This document shows, piece after piece, positions 1 to 40,682 of a stretch of DNA of 64,000 nt (position 1 is the first letter of the stretch; each line of letters opens with the position of its first letter). The stretch is taken from assembly GCA_019247195.1 (NCBI GenBank), contig JAFAPI010000073.1, positions 1 through 64,000 of the forward strand, written 5' to 3'. A program made the translations under genes and the position numbers. The notes under the pieces are model-generated. The model had not been told where the DNA came from. It ran no database searches and saw only the letters and a program-made list of their open reading frames with translations. This stretch comes from Gammaproteobacteria bacterium (GTDB lineage: Bacteria > Pseudomonadota > Gammaproteobacteria > Steroidobacterales > Steroidobacteraceae).

Positions 1-629
1 GCGACCAGGCGGGCGATCAGCCCGAGCAGCTCACGCCGCTCGCCGGCGCTGAAGTCGCGCCCGCGCGCCTCGAGGCGCGGCGCGAGCGGCTCGCTGCGGC
101 GGACCGTCTCCCCGAGCCAGGCGAGGTGGTACCAGACCGCGAGATCGTGCAGGAAGGCATCCGCGGCATAACCGATGCGCTCGGGGCTGGCGAAGGTCGC
201 GGCGAGCGTGACCAGCTCCTGGTAGGGGGCGAAGCGCTGCACCATCGTCTGCGGATGCGCACGCAGACAGGCCCGCAGCAGCGCCAGGCGCTGCGCCGGC
301 TCGCGCGGCAGCGGCGCCGGCCCGAGCATCGCCAGCACGGCATCCGGCAGCGGTGCACCCTCGGCGAGGTGCGCGTCCAGTCGCTCGGAGAGGTCGCGCA
401 GTTGCTCGAGCAGCACGGGGCTGAAGTTCACCACCGCGCGCGCGGCGGGGTTGTCCTCCAGGTGAGCCGCCATGTCGGTGTAGTCCTTGATGGCGTGCAG
501 GTAAGTCCAGGGCAGGACGTACTGCCCGTCGAGCGCGTCGCGGTACGGGGGCTGGTGCATGTGCCACAGCAACACCACCGGCAGACGCGCGACGGAGGAT
601 TGCGAAGCGGCGCCGGCCGCCGGACTCAC
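1..629 (-). CDS. Glycoside hydrolase family 57 alpha-amylase-like protein, N-terminal part (cut by window edge)
   Basis: Only the first 209 or so codons are present; the gene continues left of base 1. The protein opens with the GH57 signature: a short leader, then LPVVLLWHMHQPPYRD near residue 16, followed by YVLPWTYLHAIKDYTDMA and VNFSPVLLEQL. HMHQP is the family's first conserved block. GH57 enzymes act on alpha-glucans in the cytoplasm. The start is GTG, whose bases overlap the glgC stop (GTGA), so it is probably translated by coupling from glgC. It is third in a minus-strand run glgP-glgC-GH57, which supports glycogen breakdown or remodelling. The catalytic residues lie outside the window, so the exact activity (amylase, branching enzyme) cannot be told. 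Confidence 0.85.
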   Translation of the reverse strand, partial: MSPAAGAASQSSVARLPVVLLWHMHQPPYRDALDGQYVLPWTYLHAIKDYTDMAAHLEDNPAARAVVNFSPVLLEQLRDLSERLDAHLAEGAPLPDAVLAMLGPAPLPREPAQRLALLRACLRAHPQTMVQRFAPYQELVTLAATFASPERIGYAADAFLHDLAVWYHLAWLGETVRRSEPLAPRLEARGRDFSAGERRELLGLIARLV

Positions 630-1900
630 CGCGTCAGCCGCCGCAGCATGTCTGCGGTGACCAGCACCACGCCGTTGGCGGTCACGTGGAAGCGCTGCGC
701 ATCGCTCGCGCGGTCGAGCCCGATGCGCACCTCGGCCGGGACCTCGCAGCCCTCATCGAGGACGGCGTTGCGGATGTGGCAGCCGCGTGCCACCTCGACG
801 TTGGGCAGGACCACGGAGCGCTCGATGATGCTGCGCTCCTCGACCCGCACGTTCGAGAACAGCAGTGACTCGCGCACCACCGCGCCGGAGATGATGCAGC
901 CGCCGGAGACCATCGAGTTGATGGCGGTGCCGCGCCGGCCCTCCTCATCGAGGATGAACTTGGCCGGGGGCTGCTGGACCTGGTAGGTCCAGATCGGCCA
1001 GTCCTCGTCATAGATGTTGAGCTCGGGTCGCACGTGCACCAGCTCGAGGTTGGCGTCGTAGTAGGCATCGATGGTGCCGACGTCGCGCCAGTAGCTCTGC
1101 GCGCGCGTCTTCACGTCCTGGAAGGGATAGGCGAAGACCTGCCGGTTGCCGGCGATCGCGTCCGGGAGGATGTTCTTGCCGAAGTCGTGCTGGGATGCCG
1201 CTTGCGCCGCATCCGCGGCCAGCAGGGTCTCCAGGAGCTCGGCGTTGAACACGTAGATGCCCATCGAGGCCAGCACCGAGTCCGGCCGGCTGGGCAGGGT
1301 GTCCGGCTCGAGCGGCTTCTCGGCGAAGCGGGTCACGCGGTTCCACTCCGTCGCCGTCAGAACGCCGAAGTGACGTGCGTCGCGCGCCGGCACCTCCACC
1401 ACCCCCACGGTGATGTCGGCGCCCTTCTCCACGTGGTAGGCGATCATGGGACCGTAGTCCATCTTGTAGATGTGATCGCCGGCAAGCACCAGGACGTGCT
1501 TGGGACGGTGCGAGAGGATCAGCTCGATGTTCTGATGCACGGCATCGGCGGTGCCGCGGTACCAGAGCTCACCGAGCTGCTGCTGCGCCGGCACGACCTC
1601 GACGAACTCGCCGAACTCGCCCCGCAGGTAGCTCCAGCCGTGCTGCACGTGCTGGATGAGCGATTGCGCCTTGTACTGGGTCAGGATGGAGATCTGGCGG
1701 ATGCCCGAGTTGACACAGTTGGAGAGCACGAAGTCGATGATGCGGAACTTGCCGCCGAAGGGCGTCGCCGGCTTGCAGCGGCTGGCGGTCAGATCGCGCA
1801 GCCGCTCGCCGCGCCCGCCGGCCATGATCACCGCCAGCGTGCCACCGGTCAGACGGCTGACGTAGCGGCCGGAGGAGGCGCGGGCGGGCTGGCGCGGCAT
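626..1900 (-). CDS. glgC: Glucose-1-phosphate adenylyltransferase (ADP-glucose pyrophosphorylase)
   Basis: Makes ADP-glucose from glucose-1-phosphate and ATP, the committed step of bacterial glycogen synthesis. The 424-residue protein matches the family's usual length (about 430). The nucleotide-binding start LAVIMAGGRGERL is near residue 22, followed by KPATPFGGKFRIIDF, LSNCVNSGI, WYRGTADAVHQN and LAGDHIYKMDY; the C-terminal third is the left-handed beta-helix region with repeated IIxGAVV-like turns. I chose the ATG at 1900 (MPRQPARASSG) because the family begins only some 20 residues before the AGGRG motif; an upstream in-frame start at 1936 adds 12 unlikely residues. It lies 51 bases downstream of glgP, and its stop overlaps the GTG of the GH57 gene. 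Confidence 0.95.
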   Translation of the reverse strand: MPRQPARASSGRYVSRLTGGTLAVIMAGGRGERLRDLTASRCKPATPFGGKFRIIDFVLSNCVNSGIRQISILTQYKAQSLIQHVQHGWSYLRGEFGEFVEVVPAQQQLGELWYRGTADAVHQNIELILSHRPKHVLVLAGDHIYKMDYGPMIAYHVEKGADITVGVVEVPARDARHFGVLTATEWNRVTRFAEKPLEPDTLPSRPDSVLASMGIYVFNAELLETLLAADAAQAASQHDFGKNILPDAIAGNRQVFAYPFQDVKTRAQSYWRDVGTIDAYYDANLELVHVRPELNIYDEDWPIWTYQVQQPPAKFILDEEGRRGTAINSMVSGGCIISGAVVRESLLFSNVRVEERSIIERSVVLPNVEVARGCHIRNAVLDEGCEVPAEVRIGLDRASDAQRFHVTANGVVLVTADMLRRLTR

Positions 1901-33328: not shown

Positions 33329-33982
33329 ATGCACGGTCTGCTCAGCGCCTTCCTGCTCACCTTCGCCGGCCTGTTTCCCATCGTCAATCCGATCGAGTCG
33401 GCGCCGTTCTTCTACGGCCTGACCGCCAGCCTCGGTGCCGCGGAACGCAACGTGCTCGCGCGCAAGGTGGCCGTGAACGGCTTCGCGCTGCTGCTCGGTT
33501 CGATGGTGCTCGGTCCTTACCTGCTGGAGTTCTTCGGCATCCAGCTGCCGGTGGTGCGCATCGCCGGGGGGCTCGTAGTGACCGCGCTCGGCTGGAAGTT
33601 GCTCACCGAGGAGCAGTACTCCGACCACGCCGACTCGGACGAGCTACCCCGCAACCGGCGCCGGGCCGGCAGCTTCTACCCGCTCACCATGCCCTTGACG
33701 GTCGGGCCGGGATCGATGTCGGTGGCGATCACCATCGGCAGCCGCAAGGAGCCGGGGTTCCCGCCGCTGGCGGAGATTGCCCAGCACGCCAGCGGCGCAC
33801 TGCTCGGGCTGCTGGCCATCGGCCTCAGCATTTATCTGGCCTACCGCTTCGCGGCGGCGCTGGCGCGGCTGTTGGGGGCGACCGGCATCGAGGTGTTGGT
33901 GCGCCTCTCGGCCTTCATCCTCATGTGCATCGGCATCGAGATCCTGTGGAATGGCTGGAGCACGCTGAGCGCCCCGCACTGA
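33329..33982 (+). CDS. MarC family integral membrane protein
   Basis: A 217-residue membrane protein with six predicted spans and the MarC signature FAGLFPIVNPIESAPFFYGLT at residues 10-30 and TMPLTVGPGSMSVAIT near 112. The family was once called a multiple-antibiotic-resistance protein, but its function is not established. The ATG at 33329 is four bases past the upstream stop, giving tight spacing in a run with the thioredoxin-like gene. The next gene begins 48 bases later. Confidence 0.9.
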   Translation: MHGLLSAFLLTFAGLFPIVNPIESAPFFYGLTASLGAAERNVLARKVAVNGFALLLGSMVLGPYLLEFFGIQLPVVRIAGGLVVTALGWKLLTEEQYSDHADSDELPRNRRRAGSFYPLTMPLTVGPGSMSVAITIGSRKEPGFPPLAEIAQHASGALLGLLAIGLSIYLAYRFAAALARLLGATGIEVLVRLSAFILMCIGIEILWNGWSTLSAPH

Positions 33983-34030
33983 TTCAACACTGGCGCGGCT
34001 GCGTCACCGCGGGCATGATCCGCACCGGCT

Positions 34031-34249
34031 ATGCGAAGCGCCTACGAGCTCACCACTATCGCGCTGCGGATCTGGCTGATCGGCTGCCTGGTCGTGAGCG
34101 TGGTCTCATTGTCAGATTTCCTGTTCCGCCGGCCGCACGGCGCGGCGGCGCTGCTGCGTCGTCTCGCCGTGGGGCTACTGTGGCCGATCGCGCTGGTCAG
34201 CGGCGCCGGGCGGCGGGTGCTGCTCGGCCAGTTGCGGGGGGTGGCGTGA
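34031..34249 (+). CDS. Small membrane protein upstream of SPFH gene
   Basis: A 72-residue frame with one hydrophobic stretch (LRIWLIGCLVVSVVSLSDFLF, residues 12-33) and a second moderately hydrophobic one (LLRRLAVGLLWPIALVSG). The stop overlaps the ATG of the SPFH lipoprotein (TGATG), so translation coupling is likely and coding is supported. No family is recognised. It has no clear Shine-Dalgarno before its ATG. Confidence 0.55.
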   Translation: MRSAYELTTIALRIWLIGCLVVSVVSLSDFLFRRPHGAAALLRRLAVGLLWPIALVSGAGRRVLLGQLRGVA

Positions 34250-35019
34250 TGGCGAAGCGATGGTGGGCACTGGCACCGCTGCTGCCGCTGCTCGGCGGGT
34301 GCGGGGTCCACACCGTGGACACCGGCCACCGGGGCATCAAGACCAATTTCGGTCAGGTGGAAGGACCGCCGCTGGCGGAAGGGCTGTACTTCGTCAACCC
34401 CTTCACCACCTCGATCCACGCCATGGACGTGCGCATCCAGCGCTGGGACGGCAAGACCGAGGCGTACACCCGCGACGTGCAGGAGGCGACGGTCGAGTTC
34501 ACCCTGAACTACAAGCTGCGCCCCGAGGCGGCCGCGGACGTGTACCGCAGCGTCGGCCCGGACTGGGCCAACAAGCTCGTCGGCCAGCAGGTGTATCAGC
34601 ACCTGAAGAACGTCATCGGGCAATGGGACGCGGTCGATCTCATCTCCAACCGCCAGCGCGCCAACGATGCGGCGCAGGCGGCGATCGTGCAGGCGCTCGG
34701 CGCGAGCAACGTCGACGTGACCGGCTTCTCGATCACCGACTTCCAGTTCAGCCGCGCCTTCAATGAAGCGGTCGAGGCCAAGGTGATCGCGCAGCAGCGG
34801 GCGCAGGAGGCGCAGAACCGCACCGAGCAGACCAAGCAGGAAGCCCAGCAGAAGGTGATCGCGGCCACCGCGGAGGCGCAGTCCATGAAGATCCGCGCCG
34901 ACGCCCTCACCCAGAATCCGAAGCTGGTCTCGTGGGAGGCGGTGCAGAAGTGGGACGGCAAGCTGCCCGTCAACATGTACGGCTCGAGCGCGATCCCGTT
35001 CATCGACGTCGGCAAGTAA
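34249..35019 (+). CDS. SPFH/prohibitin-domain lipoprotein
   Basis: A 256-residue protein with a lipobox (LLPLLGGC) giving a predicted lipidated cysteine near residue 18. An SPFH domain follows (TVDTGHRGIKTNFGQVEGPPLAEGLYFVNPFTTSIHAMDVRIQ, residues 23-65) and a long helical, glutamine/alanine-rich C-terminal part (VEAKVIAQQRAQEAQNRTEQTKQEAQQKVI) as in prohibitins, likely forming coiled coils. Prohibitin-like proteins scaffold membrane proteases; no HflB/FtsH gene is adjacent. Its ATG is inside the upstream stop (TGATG). The gene converges on the Mur-ligase gene, four bases away. Confidence 0.9.
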   Translation: MAKRWWALAPLLPLLGGCGVHTVDTGHRGIKTNFGQVEGPPLAEGLYFVNPFTTSIHAMDVRIQRWDGKTEAYTRDVQEATVEFTLNYKLRPEAAADVYRSVGPDWANKLVGQQVYQHLKNVIGQWDAVDLISNRQRANDAAQAAIVQALGASNVDVTGFSITDFQFSRAFNEAVEAKVIAQQRAQEAQNRTEQTKQEAQQKVIAATAEAQSMKIRADALTQNPKLVSWEAVQKWDGKLPVNMYGSSAIPFIDVGK

Positions 35020-35023
35020 GGCC

Positions 35024-36802
35024 TCAGGTCCCCAGCAGCGCGAGCACCGCGCGGCGTGCCGGCGCCGCGTGCACCGGCAGGGCCAGTACGTCCCCGGGAC
35101 GCGCCCACTCGAGCGCACACTCCACGGCCGCGAGCTCGCTGTCGCGCTGACGGATGCTCTGCGCCGCGATGCCGCGGGCGCGCAGCGCAGCCGTGAGCAG
35201 GCGCGGGACCTCGCCGGGCTCGCGCCCGCGCAAGTGAGCCTCGTTTTCCTTCACCACGATCAGCGCCGGCGCGTGCTGCGCCGCGGCGTGCGCCAGCGAC
35301 TCGATCTCGCTGTCGCGGCGGTTGCCGGCGTGCCCGAGTATCAGCCCGAGGCGCCCGCCCGGCGGGCGCAGGCGCGCCGCGACCTGCAGCAGGCCGTGCA
35401 GCCCCGCCGGGTTGTGCGCGTAGTCGACGAGGATCACGACTCCGTCGCGCTCGAAGCGCATCAGGCGCCCCGGGTTATCCGCGGCGCGGCTGCCAAAACG
35501 TGCGTACACCGATGCGATGTGCGCAGGCTCGACCCCGAGCCCGGCCGCTGCCAGCGCCGCGGCCGCAAGATTCGCCACGTTGTAGGTGGCGCAGCCCCCG
35601 GCGCTGAGCGGCATGTCCCCTATCCGGCCCAGATCGTGCGCCGCGCCGCCATGGAAGAGCTCGAGCCGGCCTGCGCGCACGCCACAGGTCGCCCCCCCGG
35701 CGGCGCGGTGCGCGGCGAGAAGCGGATGCGCCTGCTCCAGCGCGAACCAACCCAGCGGCGGCGGCCGCGGGAAACGCCGCGGCAGCTGACCCGCCTTCGC
35801 GCGCAGCTGCGCGTCGTCCGCGTTCACGACCAGGAGCTCGCGTACCACGCCGGCGACGGTCAGCTTGACGTCGGCGAGCGCGGCCAGATCGTCGATCCCG
35901 TATTCGCCGAAGTGATCGGCGCTCACATTGGTGACCACGCCGACGCAGGCCTGCGAGAGTGCCAGGCCGCGGCGCAGGATGCCGCCGCGCGCGGTCTCGA
36001 TGACCGCAGCGGCTGCCCGGCGCTCGCGCAGGACCCGCCGCGCACCTTCCGGGCCCGCGTAGTCGCCGCCGATCTGCAATTCCCCATCGAAAAACACCCC
36101 ATCGGTGCAGCACCAGGCGGCGGGCCACCCCTGCGCACGCGCAGCCGCGGCGATGAGTCGCACGGTGGTGGTCTTGCCGTTCGAGCCGGTCACGAGCGCG
36201 GTGGGCACCGCCCGCAGCGCACTCAGATCGAGCTCGCCCGGCGCGGGCAGGGCATCGAGCGCGAAATCCGCGCCACCCGCCCCGCTGCCGAGGGTAAGGA
36301 TCGACTCATCCTGCGTATGGGGCAGATCGCGCGCCGCGGCGGCGTCGATGAGCGCGCGCAGGCGCGGCCGCGCCTCGCGCGCGCTCAGGGTCCTGAAGCG
36401 CGCCAGCGCCGCATCGGCCGCCAGGACCGGAGGCGGCTCGGGCGACGGCAGGGGCGCGGCAGACTCGGCGGCCGCCGCGCGCAGACCCGCCTCCAGCTCG
36501 GCAGTGCGCTGCGGGGCGTGCGCGGCGAGTGCCGCGCACAGGGCCCACTCGTTGACTTCGGTCGCGAGGAACAGCTGATCGACCGGCGCCGCGAGTGCCA
36601 GCGACACCCCGCCGGCGTGCGCCCGGGCGCAGATCTCACCCGCGGGCCAGCCGAGCTGCGCCCGCGCCCACTCGACCCGCTCGCGCCAGCGGGCGATCAG
36701 GGCGGCATCGGCCGCGCCAGCCTCCAGCTGCGCGCCGGTGCCGGCGAAGAAGAGGTTCGCACCCGTCAGCCGGCGCGAGCTCTCGAACGGCAGTGCGCTC
36801 AC
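35024..36802 (-). CDS. Mur ligase family protein, cyanophycin-synthetase-like without ATP-grasp domain
   Basis: A 592-residue protein. The Mur-ligase P-loop is at residues 206-213 (GSNGKTTT), followed by ETARGGILRRGLALS, GVVTNVSADHFGEYGIDDLAALADVKLTV and a C-terminal domain (RLMRFERDGVVILVDYAHNPAGLHGLL, LILGHAGNRRDSEIESLA). This matches the M domain of cyanophycin synthetase, but the N-terminal 195 residues show no ATP-grasp domain. It starts with GTG three bases after the cphA stop, so it is in the same operon. Its substrate is unknown: it could help polymerise or modify a cyanophycin-like dipeptide chain, or be a diverged paralogue. Family members sit beside cphA in other proteobacteria too. 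Confidence 0.75.
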   Translation of the reverse strand: MSALPFESSRRLTGANLFFAGTGAQLEAGAADAALIARWRERVEWARAQLGWPAGEICARAHAGGVSLALAAPVDQLFLATEVNEWALCAALAAHAPQRTAELEAGLRAAAAESAAPLPSPEPPPVLAADAALARFRTLSAREARPRLRALIDAAAARDLPHTQDESILTLGSGAGGADFALDALPAPGELDLSALRAVPTALVTGSNGKTTTVRLIAAAARAQGWPAAWCCTDGVFFDGELQIGGDYAGPEGARRVLRERRAAAAVIETARGGILRRGLALSQACVGVVTNVSADHFGEYGIDDLAALADVKLTVAGVVRELLVVNADDAQLRAKAGQLPRRFPRPPPLGWFALEQAHPLLAAHRAAGGATCGVRAGRLELFHGGAAHDLGRIGDMPLSAGGCATYNVANLAAAALAAAGLGVEPAHIASVYARFGSRAADNPGRLMRFERDGVVILVDYAHNPAGLHGLLQVAARLRPPGGRLGLILGHAGNRRDSEIESLAHAAAQHAPALIVVKENEAHLRGREPGEVPRLLTAALRARGIAAQSIRQRDSELAAVECALEWARPGDVLALPVHAAPARRAVLALLGT

Positions 36803-36805
36803 GGC

Positions 36806-39604
36806 TCAGTCTTCGGCATCCGGTGCGTAGCGCACGCCGCGCTCATCACGGATCAGGCCCTCGAGGCTGAAGGCGGCCGGCGGGGGCTCGGCGCCGGCGA
36901 GAGGGGCGGGTGCGCTCTCCAGGAGCGCGCCCCGCGTGGCCGGCGCCACGTCGCTGCCGGCGGGCTTGAACTTGGTGATCTGCTTCCACGAGCGCACCAG
37001 GGCGTCGGCGAAGATCAGCAGCAGGTCGCCGGGCTGCCCCATCTGCAGCGCCGCGGTGATGGCCTCCTGCTCGTCCGGGATCACGCTGATGGCGGCGGCC
37101 GGCACCCCCGCCGCGGCCAGCGCCGCCGCCTGGATGCGCGGCACCTCATCCGGGGCGCGTTCACGCAGATTGTCATCGCGGCGGCAAATGTAGTGATCGA
37201 AGCGGCCGGCCGCTGCGCGCGCGATGGCCACCAGATCCTCGTCGCGGCGGTCCCCCGGCCCGGCGAGCACCACGATGCGGCGGCCGCTCACGTCGAGTCG
37301 CTGCGCGAGATCGGCGAGCGCAGCCACCGCGTGGGCGTTGTGGCCATAGTCGAAGAGCACCTTGAAGGGGTGCTCGCTGAAGATGTTCATGCGTCCCGGC
37401 GCCTGGAAGAAGGTGGCGTCGAAGGTGCGCAGACCCTGGCGGATCGCGTCGAGCTTGATGCCAAGCGAAAAGGCCATCGCCGCGGCGAACATGGCGTTCT
37501 GCACGTTGTGCGTGGCGCGGCCCTCGAGGGTGGCGGGGATCAGGTGCGTCCACAGCAGCGGCAGGTGACCGCTCTTGTCGTAGAGGGTGATCATCTGCCC
37601 GTTCACACCGGCCTCGAGCGCGCAGGCGCGGCCCCCGGCCCGCACGTGCTCGCGCACCAGCTGATGCTGCGGGTTCATCGTGACGTAGCAGAGATTCTTA
37701 GCCTCGGTGTAGCCGGACATGCGCAGCACGAGCGGGTCGTCGGCGTTCAGCACCGCGCAGTCGGTCGCCACCTCGACCACGATGCGCTTCACCTCGGCCA
37801 GTTGCTCGAGCGTGTCGATGCCCTTCAGCCCGAGGTGATCAGGCTGCACGTTGAGGACCGCCCCGACGTTCACCTCGCTCACTCCCATGCCGGCGCGGAT
37901 CAGTCCGCCGCGTGCGGTCTCGAGCACGGCGAGGTCGATCTGCGGGTCCGCGAGCACCATGCGCGCGGACACCGGACCGGTCATGTCGCCCGCCACCGTG
38001 CGCTGGCCGTCGATGTACACCCCGTCGGTGGTGGTCAGTCCGGGGGTGAAGCCGGCCATCTTGGTGATGTGGGCCAGCATGCGCGCGGTAGTGGTCTTGC
38101 CGTTGGTGCCGGTGATCGCGGCGATCGGCACCCGCGCCGGCGTGCCCGGCGGGAACAGCATGTCGAGCACCGGTGCCGCCACGTCGCGCGCGGTACCTTC
38201 GCTGGGGGCGACGTGCATGCGGAAACCGGGCGCGGCATTGATCTCGCAGATGCCGCCACCGATGCTGCGGTAGCTCTCGGCGATGTTCTGCGACAGGAAG
38301 TCGACGCCGCCCACGTCGAGGCCGATGGCGCGCACCGCGCGCTCGGCCATCTCGCGGTTGTCGGGGTGAATAATGTCGGTCACGTCGGTCGCGGTGCCCC
38401 CGGTCGAGAGGTTGGCGGTGGAGCGCAGGTACACCACCTGGCCAGGCCCGGGCACGCTCTCGGGAGTGAGCCCGGCGCGCTCGAGCATCTTGAAGGCCTG
38501 TGCGTCCAGCTCCAGACGCGTCAGCACCTTCTCGTGGCCGACGCCGCGGCGCGGGTCCTGATTGACGCGCTCGATGAGAGCGCGGACGTCGTGCTCGCCG
38601 TCGCCCACCACGTGCCCCGGAGTACGGCGGGTGGCCGCCACCAGCTCGCCGTTCACCACCAGCAGCCGGTGGTCGTCACCCTCGAGAAAGTTCTCGACGA
38701 TCACCGAGCGGGAGTGCTCGCGCGCTACCGCGAACCCGTGCGCGACCTCGGCCTCGGTGGTGAGGCGGATCGAGATGCCCCGGCCGTGGTTCCCGTTGTA
38801 AGGCTTGGTGACCACCGGGAAACCGAGACGAGCCGCCGCGCGCAGCGCCTGGGTCTCGCTCTGCACGAGCTCCTGGCGTGGCACCGGCAGGCCGAGCCCG
38901 GCGAGGATCTTGTTGGTCTCCTCCTTGTCACTCGCCAGCTCGACGGCGATGTGCGGGGTGCGGCCGGTCACGGTCGCCTGGATGCGCTGCTGGTACTTGC
39001 CATGGCCGAGCTGCACCAGCGACTGATCGTTGAGGCGCAGCCAGGGGATGCCGCGCTGCTCGGCGGCGCGCACCAGCGAGGCGGTCGAAGGACCGAGCGC
39101 GCGGCGCTGGGCAAATTTGATGAACTGATCGCGCGCCTGCGGCCAGTCCCAGCCCTCCGGCACTGCACCCGGGGGTCGCAGCGCCGCGGGCAGTAGCGAG
39201 CACAGCAGGCGCAGCCCGAGCTCGCCGGCGGCGATACCTTCATCACGCTGTGCATACTCGTACACCACCGTGTACTGCCCCGGTGCCCCGGCAGTGCGGG
39301 TCTTGCCGAAGGTGACGGCCTCGCCGGCGATGTTCTGCAGCTCGATCGCGACGTGCTCGAGCACGTGCCCGAGCCAGGTGCCCTCGCCCTCGCGCATGCG
39401 CCGCAGGAATCCACCCGGCTGGCGGTAGGAGCAGCCGTGCTCGGCCAGCCCCGGCAGGGCGGCGGCGAGGGAATGGATGAAGGTATCGCCCAGGCGCGCG
39501 GTGGGCCACGCCTCGAGCGCGCCGAGGTCCAGGTCGAGCCGAATGACCGGAAAGCGGGCGTAGAGCGAGGGGCCGACGTAGACGGAGCGGTCGAGGATGC
39601 GCAT
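36806..39604 (-). CDS. cphA: Cyanophycin synthetase
   Basis: Polymerises aspartate and arginine into cyanophycin, a nitrogen and carbon store, without ribosomes and using ATP. The 932-residue protein has the expected three parts: an N domain (to about residue 170) containing GHVLEHVAIELQNIAGE, an ATP-grasp domain (FPVVTKPYNGNHGRGISIRL near 280; GGGICEINAAPGFRM near 440) that adds aspartate, and a Mur-ligase domain with P-loop GTNGKTTT at 499-506 that adds arginine. The HVLEH in the N domain fits the inverted HxxEH zinc site reported for primer cleavage in other CphA enzymes. Start chosen at MRILDRSVYVGPS. It follows cphB by 65 bases. Confidence 0.95.
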   Translation of the reverse strand: MRILDRSVYVGPSLYARFPVIRLDLDLGALEAWPTARLGDTFIHSLAAALPGLAEHGCSYRQPGGFLRRMREGEGTWLGHVLEHVAIELQNIAGEAVTFGKTRTAGAPGQYTVVYEYAQRDEGIAAGELGLRLLCSLLPAALRPPGAVPEGWDWPQARDQFIKFAQRRALGPSTASLVRAAEQRGIPWLRLNDQSLVQLGHGKYQQRIQATVTGRTPHIAVELASDKEETNKILAGLGLPVPRQELVQSETQALRAAARLGFPVVTKPYNGNHGRGISIRLTTEAEVAHGFAVAREHSRSVIVENFLEGDDHRLLVVNGELVAATRRTPGHVVGDGEHDVRALIERVNQDPRRGVGHEKVLTRLELDAQAFKMLERAGLTPESVPGPGQVVYLRSTANLSTGGTATDVTDIIHPDNREMAERAVRAIGLDVGGVDFLSQNIAESYRSIGGGICEINAAPGFRMHVAPSEGTARDVAAPVLDMLFPPGTPARVPIAAITGTNGKTTTARMLAHITKMAGFTPGLTTTDGVYIDGQRTVAGDMTGPVSARMVLADPQIDLAVLETARGGLIRAGMGVSEVNVGAVLNVQPDHLGLKGIDTLEQLAEVKRIVVEVATDCAVLNADDPLVLRMSGYTEAKNLCYVTMNPQHQLVREHVRAGGRACALEAGVNGQMITLYDKSGHLPLLWTHLIPATLEGRATHNVQNAMFAAAMAFSLGIKLDAIRQGLRTFDATFFQAPGRMNIFSEHPFKVLFDYGHNAHAVAALADLAQRLDVSGRRIVVLAGPGDRRDEDLVAIARAAAGRFDHYICRRDDNLRERAPDEVPRIQAAALAAAGVPAAAISVIPDEQEAITAALQMGQPGDLLLIFADALVRSWKQITKFKPAGSDVAPATRGALLESAPAPLAGAEPPPAAFSLEGLIRDERGVRYAPDAED

Positions 39605-39669
39605 GGGTGTTGCTCGGGTAATCGTTATTGGCGGCAACCAGAAGCGCGCGAAGAAGTCAGCTCGGCAGG

Positions 39670-40509
39670 TTACTCCTTGGGCTGCGGCAGCGAACCGGCC
39701 GAGGCGGTGTGGGTGCCCAGATCGTACGTCGCCCCCGCCACCAGGATGTGCAGCCGCAGTCCCAGCATGCACACCGGCTGCCCGTCGCTCACCTTGTCGA
39801 TCGAGGAGTAGCTCACGTCGGCGGCGTCCACGATCGTCACCCCGCCACTGCCACCCACCTCGATGCGGTCGTCCGGGCCGATGTAGGCCGCCGTGTCCTC
39901 GTCCAGTCCGATGCCGACCGCGAAGGGATTATAGGCCAGTGCCGTCAGCAGACGGCCGAGCCGGTCGCGCTGGCGGAAGTGCTGATCGATGATGAAGCGG
40001 TTAGTCAGGCCTAGACCGGGGGCGAGTCGCACGCTGCCGGCGACCATGGCCGAGCCCTCATCCCCCGAGGCGATCATGTGCTCGCTGAGGATGCTCGCCC
40101 CCGCACTCGTACCCCCGACCGTCACGCCGTGGGCGTTGCGCTGACGGATGAGCCGTGCCACCGGGGTGCCGCCGAGCAACGTGGTGAGGCGCAGTTGATT
40201 GCCGCCGGTGAAGAAAATGCCACTCGCGGCCTCGAGCCGCTGCAGGCGGCCGCCCTCCTGGCAGTCGCGACGCGTATCGAAGTCCATCACCTCGACCCGT
40301 GCGGCGCCGATCTCACGGAAGATCTGCTCGTAGCGGGGGCCGGTCTCGTGCGCGCGGCTCGCGGTCGGGATCACCACGATGTCGGCCGCGTCGCCACCGG
40401 AGAGGCTGACGAAGCGCTCGAGAATCTCCCGGTCGTTTTCCTTGTTCTCCGCGCCTCCGATCGGCACGATCCAGCCACGCCGCTCACCGTCGGGAACTTT
40501 GCTGGGCAT
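39670..40509 (-). CDS. cphB: Cyanophycinase (S51 family peptidase)
   Basis: Breaks cyanophycin down to beta-Asp-Arg dipeptides. The 279-residue protein matches the family length. VPIGGAENKENDREILERFVSLSGG opens it; the serine nucleophile is in VGGTSAGASILS near residue 135, IFFTGGNQLRLTTLLGGT precedes it, and GLGLTNRFIIDQHFRQRDRLGRL follows near 180. I chose MPSKVPDG (40509) since AAGGA lies about 11 bases upstream; a TTG start at 40545 is possible. It heads cphB-cphA-Mur ligase, so synthesis and mobilisation share an operon. Confidence 0.95.
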   Translation of the reverse strand: MPSKVPDGERRGWIVPIGGAENKENDREILERFVSLSGGDAADIVVIPTASRAHETGPRYEQIFREIGAARVEVMDFDTRRDCQEGGRLQRLEAASGIFFTGGNQLRLTTLLGGTPVARLIRQRNAHGVTVGGTSAGASILSEHMIASGDEGSAMVAGSVRLAPGLGLTNRFIIDQHFRQRDRLGRLLTALAYNPFAVGIGLDEDTAAYIGPDDRIEVGGSGGVTIVDAADVSYSSIDKVSDGQPVCMLGLRLHILVAGATYDLGTHTASAGSLPQPKE

Positions 40510-40682
40510 CCGCTGCGAAATCCTTACTGTCACGTAAGCGCTCAAGTTACCACGGCGGCGGGTCTCCTGCCCGCAGGCGTGGCACGGGCTTGGGTGCCGG
40601 CGGATTCAGGCGCGCGAGGTGCGGGAGTGGGCTGCGGCTGCCTTTGTCAAGCGGTGCGGGACAGTGCCCGCTCTCCGGCCCA

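Follow-up and report, generated by a model that had tools for sequence, protein, structure and literature searches.

Cyanophycin synthetase CphA1 (TIGR02068; PDB 7wae, 7lg5) extends chains at their C-terminus, and the side chain of each Asp just added is the target of the M domain, as described in PMC9262961, where a Cys/HxxEH motif of the N domain is reported for 83% of the CphA1 sequences in nr70 and is thus not strictly defining. A cyanobacterial relative of CphA, CphA2, has a single active site (PMC10206079). Here we analyzed a stretch of 64,000 nucleotides from a gammaproteobacterium of the Steroidobacteraceae (the window; contig JAFAPI010000073.1, assembly GCA_019247195.1) in which the cyanophycin genes cphB and cphA are followed by a third gene, which we call murX. 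MurX shares with CphA1 the order and placement of the N and M domains, the catalytic residues of the M domain, and the operon. Unlike CphA1, it has no detectable ATP-grasp (G) domain, so that no backbone extension is expected from it; it also has no HxxEH motif and is 592 residues long, versus about 930 in the partner CphAs. We think it fairly probable that MurX is a partner ligase acting in trans with one type of CphA, whose C-terminal tail would serve as the presenter.

No description of MurX was recognized in the open-access literature, subscription papers being outside the scope of the search. In the parts covered, the Lysobacter capsici genome paper lists only cphA and cphB, as a two-gene cluster (PMC4742617), and the parts covered of a survey of cyanophycin gene clusters count CphA1, cyanophycinase and dipeptidases with no mention of a MurX-like protein (PMC10206079). 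Newly seen here is an Asp-ended, motif-bearing tail on the CphAs that adjoin MurX.

murX is the third gene of a cyanophycin operon

The original prediction, made from the letters of the window, had described a minus-strand operon of cphB, cphA and an added Mur ligase without an ATP-grasp domain. The operon is real: the cphB product scored 261 bits against TIGR02069 (cut-off 126.6) and the cphA product 1097 bits against TIGR02068 (cut-off 850), the gene order on the minus strand is cphB-cphA-murX, and the GTG start codon of murX lies 3 nucleotides past the stop codon of cphA. In Pfam, MurX matched Mur_ligase_M (residues 204-337) and Mur_ligase_C (445-573) and no further family at E<=1. Its match to the NCBIfam model TIGR02068 joined residues 198-576 to profile positions 478-847 only, with 295.6 bits, below the cut-off of 850. 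The best sequence matches of MurX in PDB were the M domains of cyanophycin synthetases; rows of VIM beta-lactamases in the same search were taken as chance. As the original prediction had it, no ATP-grasp family was among the matches listed (Pfam, 25 of the 26 families of the NCBIfam search, and the PDB sequence search), and the 592 residues leave no room for a G domain between N and M.

MurX has the Mur-type M and C domains and the chemistry class of MurE, MurF and FolC; unlike members of these families, it scores far below their cut-offs. It was rejected as a MurE (TIGR01085, 80 bits versus a cut-off of 257), as a MurF (34 versus 289) and as a FolC (27 versus 163), and its TIGR02068 score is far above all of these, so that an ordinary MurF or FolC homologue, one of two findings that would have overturned the original prediction, does not apply. 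A separate MurE (486 bits) is encoded elsewhere in the same genome. Plasmid relatives of MurX in four records are annotated merely as 'Mur ligase family protein'.

The N-terminal part of MurX resembles that of CphA in structural models

A full-length AlphaFold2 model of MurX, made with an alignment of 53 family members, had a mean predicted local distance difference test score (pLDDT) of 94.2 and superposed on CphA1 (7wae_A) with Z 37.0 and a root-mean-square deviation (rmsd) of 3.0 A over 547 aligned residues, 4..592 of MurX to 1..875 of CphA1. The N-terminal part was modeled separately (pLDDT 93.8). In a structure search with this model, the top ten rows were all CphA1 or CphA2 (Z 10.8-7.5, identity 10-16%, rmsd 3.6-5.1 A), CphA2 (PDB 8fxh, 8fxi) matching at Z 9.1, and the next row was at 5.9, which left only CphA1 and CphA2 above background. 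All five Foldseek matches at E<=0.001 were CphA1, in a loose superposition (TM about 0.5, rmsd 6-7.4 A, or 6-7.6 A over the CphA1 rows). The top structural alignment held 160 residues, running from 4..201 of the model to 1..490 of CphA, and skips about 330 CphA residues, a figure that comes from the first and last residues of the two ranges; judged from this alignment range, the skipped residues would be the ATP-grasp core. At the sequence level, the hhalign match to CphA was limited to MurX 115-178, which paired with CphA 141-206, at about the point where the G domain begins (P 2.5e-4, probability 43%), and a profile search of PDB with the N-terminal part gave no CphA or other relevant match.

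The first 195 residues of MurX had been called unrecognized in the original prediction. Their modeled fold matches the CphA N domain and, in part, the G core, and they thus look like a CphA N domain with a short remnant of the ATP-grasp (G) core after it. An ATP-grasp domain hidden in residues 1-195, the other finding that would have overturned the original prediction, was ruled out, the fold there being that of a CphA N domain with a probable G-core stub. The HxxEH hydrolase motif was found within the first 200 residues in none of the 53 MurX family members. Because the full-length model superposes on CphA1, the N-terminal matches are to CphA proteins only and no ATP-grasp match is present, MurX looks like a CphA paralogue that retains the N and M domains but no longer has G. 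This would be the opposite reduction to that in CphA2, which keeps the G site and has lost the M site; with no ATP-grasp match, MurX does not show the working G site by which CphA2 polymerizes beta-Asp-Arg.

The M domain of MurX keeps the catalytic residues

For sequence comparison, 52 of the 101 MurX family members were aligned with the window protein, to which the family is 32-67% identical, giving 53 sequences, and 32 of 35 CphA references were aligned with the CphA of the window; a further alignment held 34 of 35 N-termini. The M-domain comparison used 52 of the 53 MurX sequences and 33 CphAs. The P-loop that the original prediction had placed at residues 206-213 is located there and reads GSNGKTTT. 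Invariant in all 53 MurX sequences are G206, N208-T212, T233, E269, D296-H297, K313, R446, D460, H463 and N464, and these invariant residues are also common to the M domains of the partner CphAs. MurX residues K210, T211, T233, E269, R446 and H463 correspond to TeCphA1 K499, T500, T522, E558, R731 and H748 (PMC9427784), equivalences that were reckoned by hand from the offset of the PDB match (198 to 487) and equal spacing. Mutation of both D585 and H586, the counterparts of D296-H297 in SuCphA1, inactivates the M domain (PMC9262961). With its catalytic residues intact, the M domain of MurX looks active as judged from its sequence.

Position 278 is Arg in 53/53 MurX sequences and Ala in 33/33 partner CphAs. 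The idea that this Arg marks an enzyme with an acidic acceptor was considered and then dropped, since Arg is also found there in 6 of 22 pattern-matched CphAs without MurX (23 examined).

MurX occurs together with cphA

Related loci were fetched for 80 of 149 relatives; the count of 101 family members in these loci includes some contigs that were fetched twice, and two of the loci are the window's own. In 92 of the 101 cases cphA lies directly upstream on the same strand, and the other nine murX genes start at most 660 bases from the end of their locus. The operon arrangement is therefore not due to chance.

Of 370 sampled genomes from the window's class (Gammaproteobacteria, going by what its relatives are called), nine had the MurX N-terminus and 19 a CphA over the cut-off, and all nine MurX genomes had CphA (hypergeometric 2.8e-13). 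In a sample of 397 genomes of the phylum, which overlaps the class sample in some genomes, MurX was found in seven, three of them from another class, and CphA in 7/7. The co-occurrence with cphA that had been suggested as a check thus held in both of these overlapping samples. Among 247 genomes of the order, 91 had a match and 88 of these had two or more among the matches listed. In one of the exceptions (G970) CphA stops 8 bases short of the contig end and ends in Asp, in another (G881) MurX stands at the contig start, and the last (G918) has a MurX remnant of 237 codons and no CphA match. The remnant (L224 1483-2193, minus strand) is flanked by dnaG-like and yqeY-like genes, as assigned by eye, in a genome that is 98% complete.

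Alphaproteobacteria also have the operon, on plasmids of Shinella and Ruegeria. The arrangement cphB-cphA-murX is seen on large plasmids in L230, L233, L235 and L236, and on the Shinella plasmids the operon is immediately preceded by a recombinase gene and, farther upstream, by a Tn3-family transposase gene. Holophagaceae metagenome-assembled genomes (L072, L079, L083) carry the operon as well, but all belong to a single series, and misbinning is possible.

By its clustering with cphA and cphB, murX is a gene of cyanophycin metabolism. No fourth gene was found to be conserved across all loci. The commonest neighbor cluster was present in 23 of 53 long loci, and its representative had no Pfam match. 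A cluster upstream of cphB was present in 16 of the 53, and the one member scanned (L026 300-1850) is an amidohydrolase, perhaps an isoaspartyl dipeptidase.

The other ten CphA genomes of the class sample comprised five with a second, shortened CphA and five with one match only. The second, shortened CphA lies upstream of cphA, always on the minus strand (L141 3021-5351, L142 3089-5368, L143 2979-5294, L144 3040-5217, L145 2936-4957). Its TIGR02068 match starts at profile position 2-4 and ends between 310 and 716. The HxxEH motif of the N domain is present and the M-domain P-loop is absent by pattern, and a G-site pattern (HGRG or NGxG) is present in two of the five, so that a working G site is putative. 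Having kept the N and G regions with a degenerate M, these proteins are roughly a mirror image of MurX. They are probably the same as the paired synthetases reported in betaproteobacteria (PMC5178258).

CphAs linked to MurX end in an invariant Asp

In MurX-linked CphAs the M domain is followed by a linker and a short conserved end, for example IRDERGVRYAPDAED, with a DERGVR-like motif. The linker, taken from WKQ to RG, was 42-113 residues long in the 100 sequences measured, and the net charge of the last 25 residues was about -4 (median). The last residue is Asp in 103/103 distinct MurX-linked CphAs, a set from which L068, with a masked run in the tail, was excluded. The fourth-last residue is Glu in 97 and Asp in six, whereas the two positions between it and the final Asp are variable. 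The distance from the motif to the end is 9 to 12 in the 97 CphAs that match a strict D-x-R-G pattern; the six outside this pattern read REERG and also end in Asp. The Cys/HxxEH motif of the N domain is present in 33/33 partner CphAs.

GAC encodes the final Asp in 73 cases and GAT in the other 30, and all three stop codons are used. The gap between cphA and murX, measured in 61 of the 103 operons, is at least 30 nucleotides in 15, and Asp is kept in 15/15. Because Asp is kept across long gaps and both codons are used, an acidic CphA end as a by-product of the murX ribosome-binding site was ruled out.

Of CphAs without MurX in the locus, 0/23 had the motif or a final Asp. These 23 are the CphA-like frames that reach profile position 850 among 34 without MurX, the other 11 being ATP-grasp proteins or fragments of second CphAs. 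Among the 23, L130 is below the family cut-off, and many are closely related to each other. On plasmids, where the CphA end was read in 12 of 22 CphA records, both the motif and the final Asp were present in 4/4 operons with MurX, which form two closely similar pairs (the organism of the Roseateles record being marked as unverified), and the motif was present in 0/8 CphAs without an adjacent MurX. Within the MurX-linked clade, the conservation of the last residue is a stronger fact than the association of the tail with MurX.

The plasmid records also include Deinococcus genes for a 'Mur ligase family protein' (L231 4684-7183, L232 4699-7215) with a longer N-terminal part, annotated with 693 and 838 residues. 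In one of the Deinococcus strains, KNUC1210, the end of this CphA-like Mur ligase gene is overlapped by a second, short gene for a 'cyanophycin synthetase'.

MurX forms one clade and evolves fast

In a quick tree of M domains, MurX formed one clade with a value of 99 in the Shimodaira-Hasegawa-like approximate likelihood-ratio test (SH-aLRT), outside the partner CphAs, and an origin of MurX by tandem duplication of its partner CphA was thus unsupported. The sister group of MurX is uncertain in this tree (91, long branches). MurX and CphA distances were correlated with r 0.937 over 79 pairs, with 0/999 permutations as high. CphA is the slow and MurX the fast member of the pair, with a median identity of 82% versus 53%.

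The features in the window are given in Table 1. The operon is neighbored by a gene for an SPFH/Band_7 protein (33925-35019, plus strand), which converges with murX, and, upstream of cphB, by a gene for a class V aminotransferase (cysteine desulfurase-like, TIGR01976; 40683-41900) that shares its minus strand.

Table 1. Features of the cphB-cphA-murX operon, in window positions
Feature	Position	Strand	Remarks
cphB, cyanophycinase	39670..40545, first ATG at 40509	-	TIGR02069
cphA, full N-G-M cyanophycin synthetase with N-domain Cys/HxxEH motif	36806..39604	-	
CphA C-terminal extension, residues 880-932: variable linker, then IRDERGVRYAPDAED	36809..36967	-	
Codon of C-terminal Asp932 of CphA, proposed MurX acceptor or docking residue	36809..36811	-	
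murX, third gene, apparent CphA paralogue (N domain, probable G-core stub, Mur-type M domain)	35024..36802	-	592 residues, GTG start
MurX residues 4-115, predicted diverged CphA-type N domain without HxxEH	36458..36793	-	borders by eye, predicted secondary structure
MurX residues 129-195, probable CphA G-core remnant	36218..36418	-	inferred borders
P-loop GSNGKTTT, MurX residues 206-213	36164..36187	-	G206, N208-T212 invariant in 53 sequences
Asp296-His297, counterpart of SuCphA1 D585/H586	35912..35917	-	invariant in 53; from residue offset

Discussion

We propose that MurX is a CphA-derived N-M ligase that is catalytically competent and lacks the backbone-extending G domain. Like the M domain of CphA, it would spend ATP on activating a C-terminal Asp at its side-chain carboxylate and would then join an amino acid to it in an amide bond, arginine being the default guess. 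The CphA tail would unite the two proteins by presenting its motif and terminal Asp to MurX. With N and M only, MurX should carry out only the M-type step, on a C-terminal Asp, and the addition of an amino acid to such an Asp in trans is the most likely role that can be read from its sequence. Backbone growth by MurX is unlikely, because in CphA the missing G domain does that work. The acceptor Asp could be at the end of the polymer, which would make MurX an extra loader or modifier, or could be the tail Asp of the partner CphA itself, which would mean protein-primed initiation. There are hints that MurX may start or finish polymer chains as a dedicated helper.

Several observations weigh against a partnership of this kind. 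On the CphA tree all MurX-linked CphAs fall into one clade, and one change accounts for them; this tree held 13 such rows, with the window's own, the alphaproteobacterial and the most distant gammaproteobacterial ones left aside. They again form one clade (support 80) in the M-domain tree, which has 21 partner CphAs, alphaproteobacterial rows included. The tail may therefore have arisen at the same time as MurX with no functional tie between them, and the 103 sequences are not 103 events and not independent evidence of coupling. The distance correlation is equally expected from plain inheritance of the operon. Of the eight plasmid CphAs that have no MurX next to them, two Deinococcus proteins end in Asp, without the motif; both species carry the different CphA-like 'Mur ligase family protein' mentioned above on another plasmid. 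MurX is itself net acidic (median charge -15), which is unfavorable for binding an acidic tail. CphA already has an M domain of its own, and, by analogy with SuCphA1, the N-domain motif of the partner CphA may already supply primers. In the presumed amino-acid pocket, the place of CphA D867 is taken by His578 in 90% of MurX, and among the rows listed MurX does not retain D811; arginine as the substrate of MurX is therefore uncertain. The window protein keeps an acidic residue, E519, at the position of D810. By analogy with MurE structures, D867 and D811 would have a role in arginine binding. The activity of MurX, its contact with CphA and a complex of the two are putative.

The specific ways in which MurX could act are each less probable than the partnership as such. 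As an extra arginine loader, MurX would duplicate the job of the CphA M domain on polymer ends, raising the arginine content or repairing bare Asp, and the tail would be a tether. The retained M-domain catalytic residues are consistent with this, as is the retained N domain, which in CphA binds the polymer (PMC9262961). We find this role doubtful in view of the changes at D867 and D811 and the much faster evolution of MurX than of CphA. The same pocket differences, at positions presumed to face the amino acid, would suit an enzyme that attaches another residue (Lys, Orn, Cit or Glu, for example) at Asp ends, giving a modified or soluble cyanophycin; the pocket assignment comes from a sequence alignment and MurE residues, the D810 position is still acidic, and we regard such a side chain or cap as unlikely. 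That MurX is a silent or regulatory subunit, devoid of ligase activity and kept for the sake of oligomerization or control of the granules, would agree with its fast evolution, its lack of a detectable G domain and the company it keeps with CphA. This seems to us very improbable, given that the P-loop, the metal-ligand positions and the Asp-His pair are invariant in 53 sequences down to 32% identity.

In protein-primed initiation, MurX would load the first amino acid (arginine) on the tail Asp of CphA, CphA would extend from there, and its N-domain hydrolase could later free the chain. Glycogen, which grows from glycogenin, offers a likeness for a chain that grows from its enzyme. The terminal Asp is invariant despite a variable distance to the motif and synonymous codon change, and all partner CphAs examined have the N-domain motif that such a release would use. 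Extension at the C-terminus and the action of the M domain on a new Asp would also fit (PMC9262961), and the authors of that paper propose that a primer-free start is a very low side activity of all CphA1s, so that a dedicated starter would make sense. The partner CphA, however, has the motif that gives SuCphA1 its primer independence, and a second starter is thus not obviously needed. The tail, with its net charge of about -4, is little like a beta-Asp-Arg polymer, and the tail Asp is a putative acceptor, proposed from sequence. We consider priming by this route to be improbable.

The partner-ligase reading bears on what the original prediction had made of the gene. A conserved third gene of the operon stood, and the CphA-like N domain and the Asp-ended tail of CphA had been missed. 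It had supposed that the protein could extend, cap or modify a product of CphA: extension did not hold up, backbone growth being the work of the G domain, and capping or modification would fit an M-type ligase. Its other idea, a different dipeptide polymer, found no support in this analysis.

The making of the first cyanophycin units is little understood. PMC9262961 proposes that CphA1 has a very low primer-free activity that is amplified by the N-domain hydrolase. A partner ligase together with an invariant terminal Asp on CphA makes a dedicated initiation step concretely and cheaply testable. Primer dependence can limit the production of cyanophycin in heterologous hosts (PMC9262961), and a starter pair taken from nature could be of practical value for such production. 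Within the CphA family, MurX adds a reduction to M only, beside the shortened CphAs without M.

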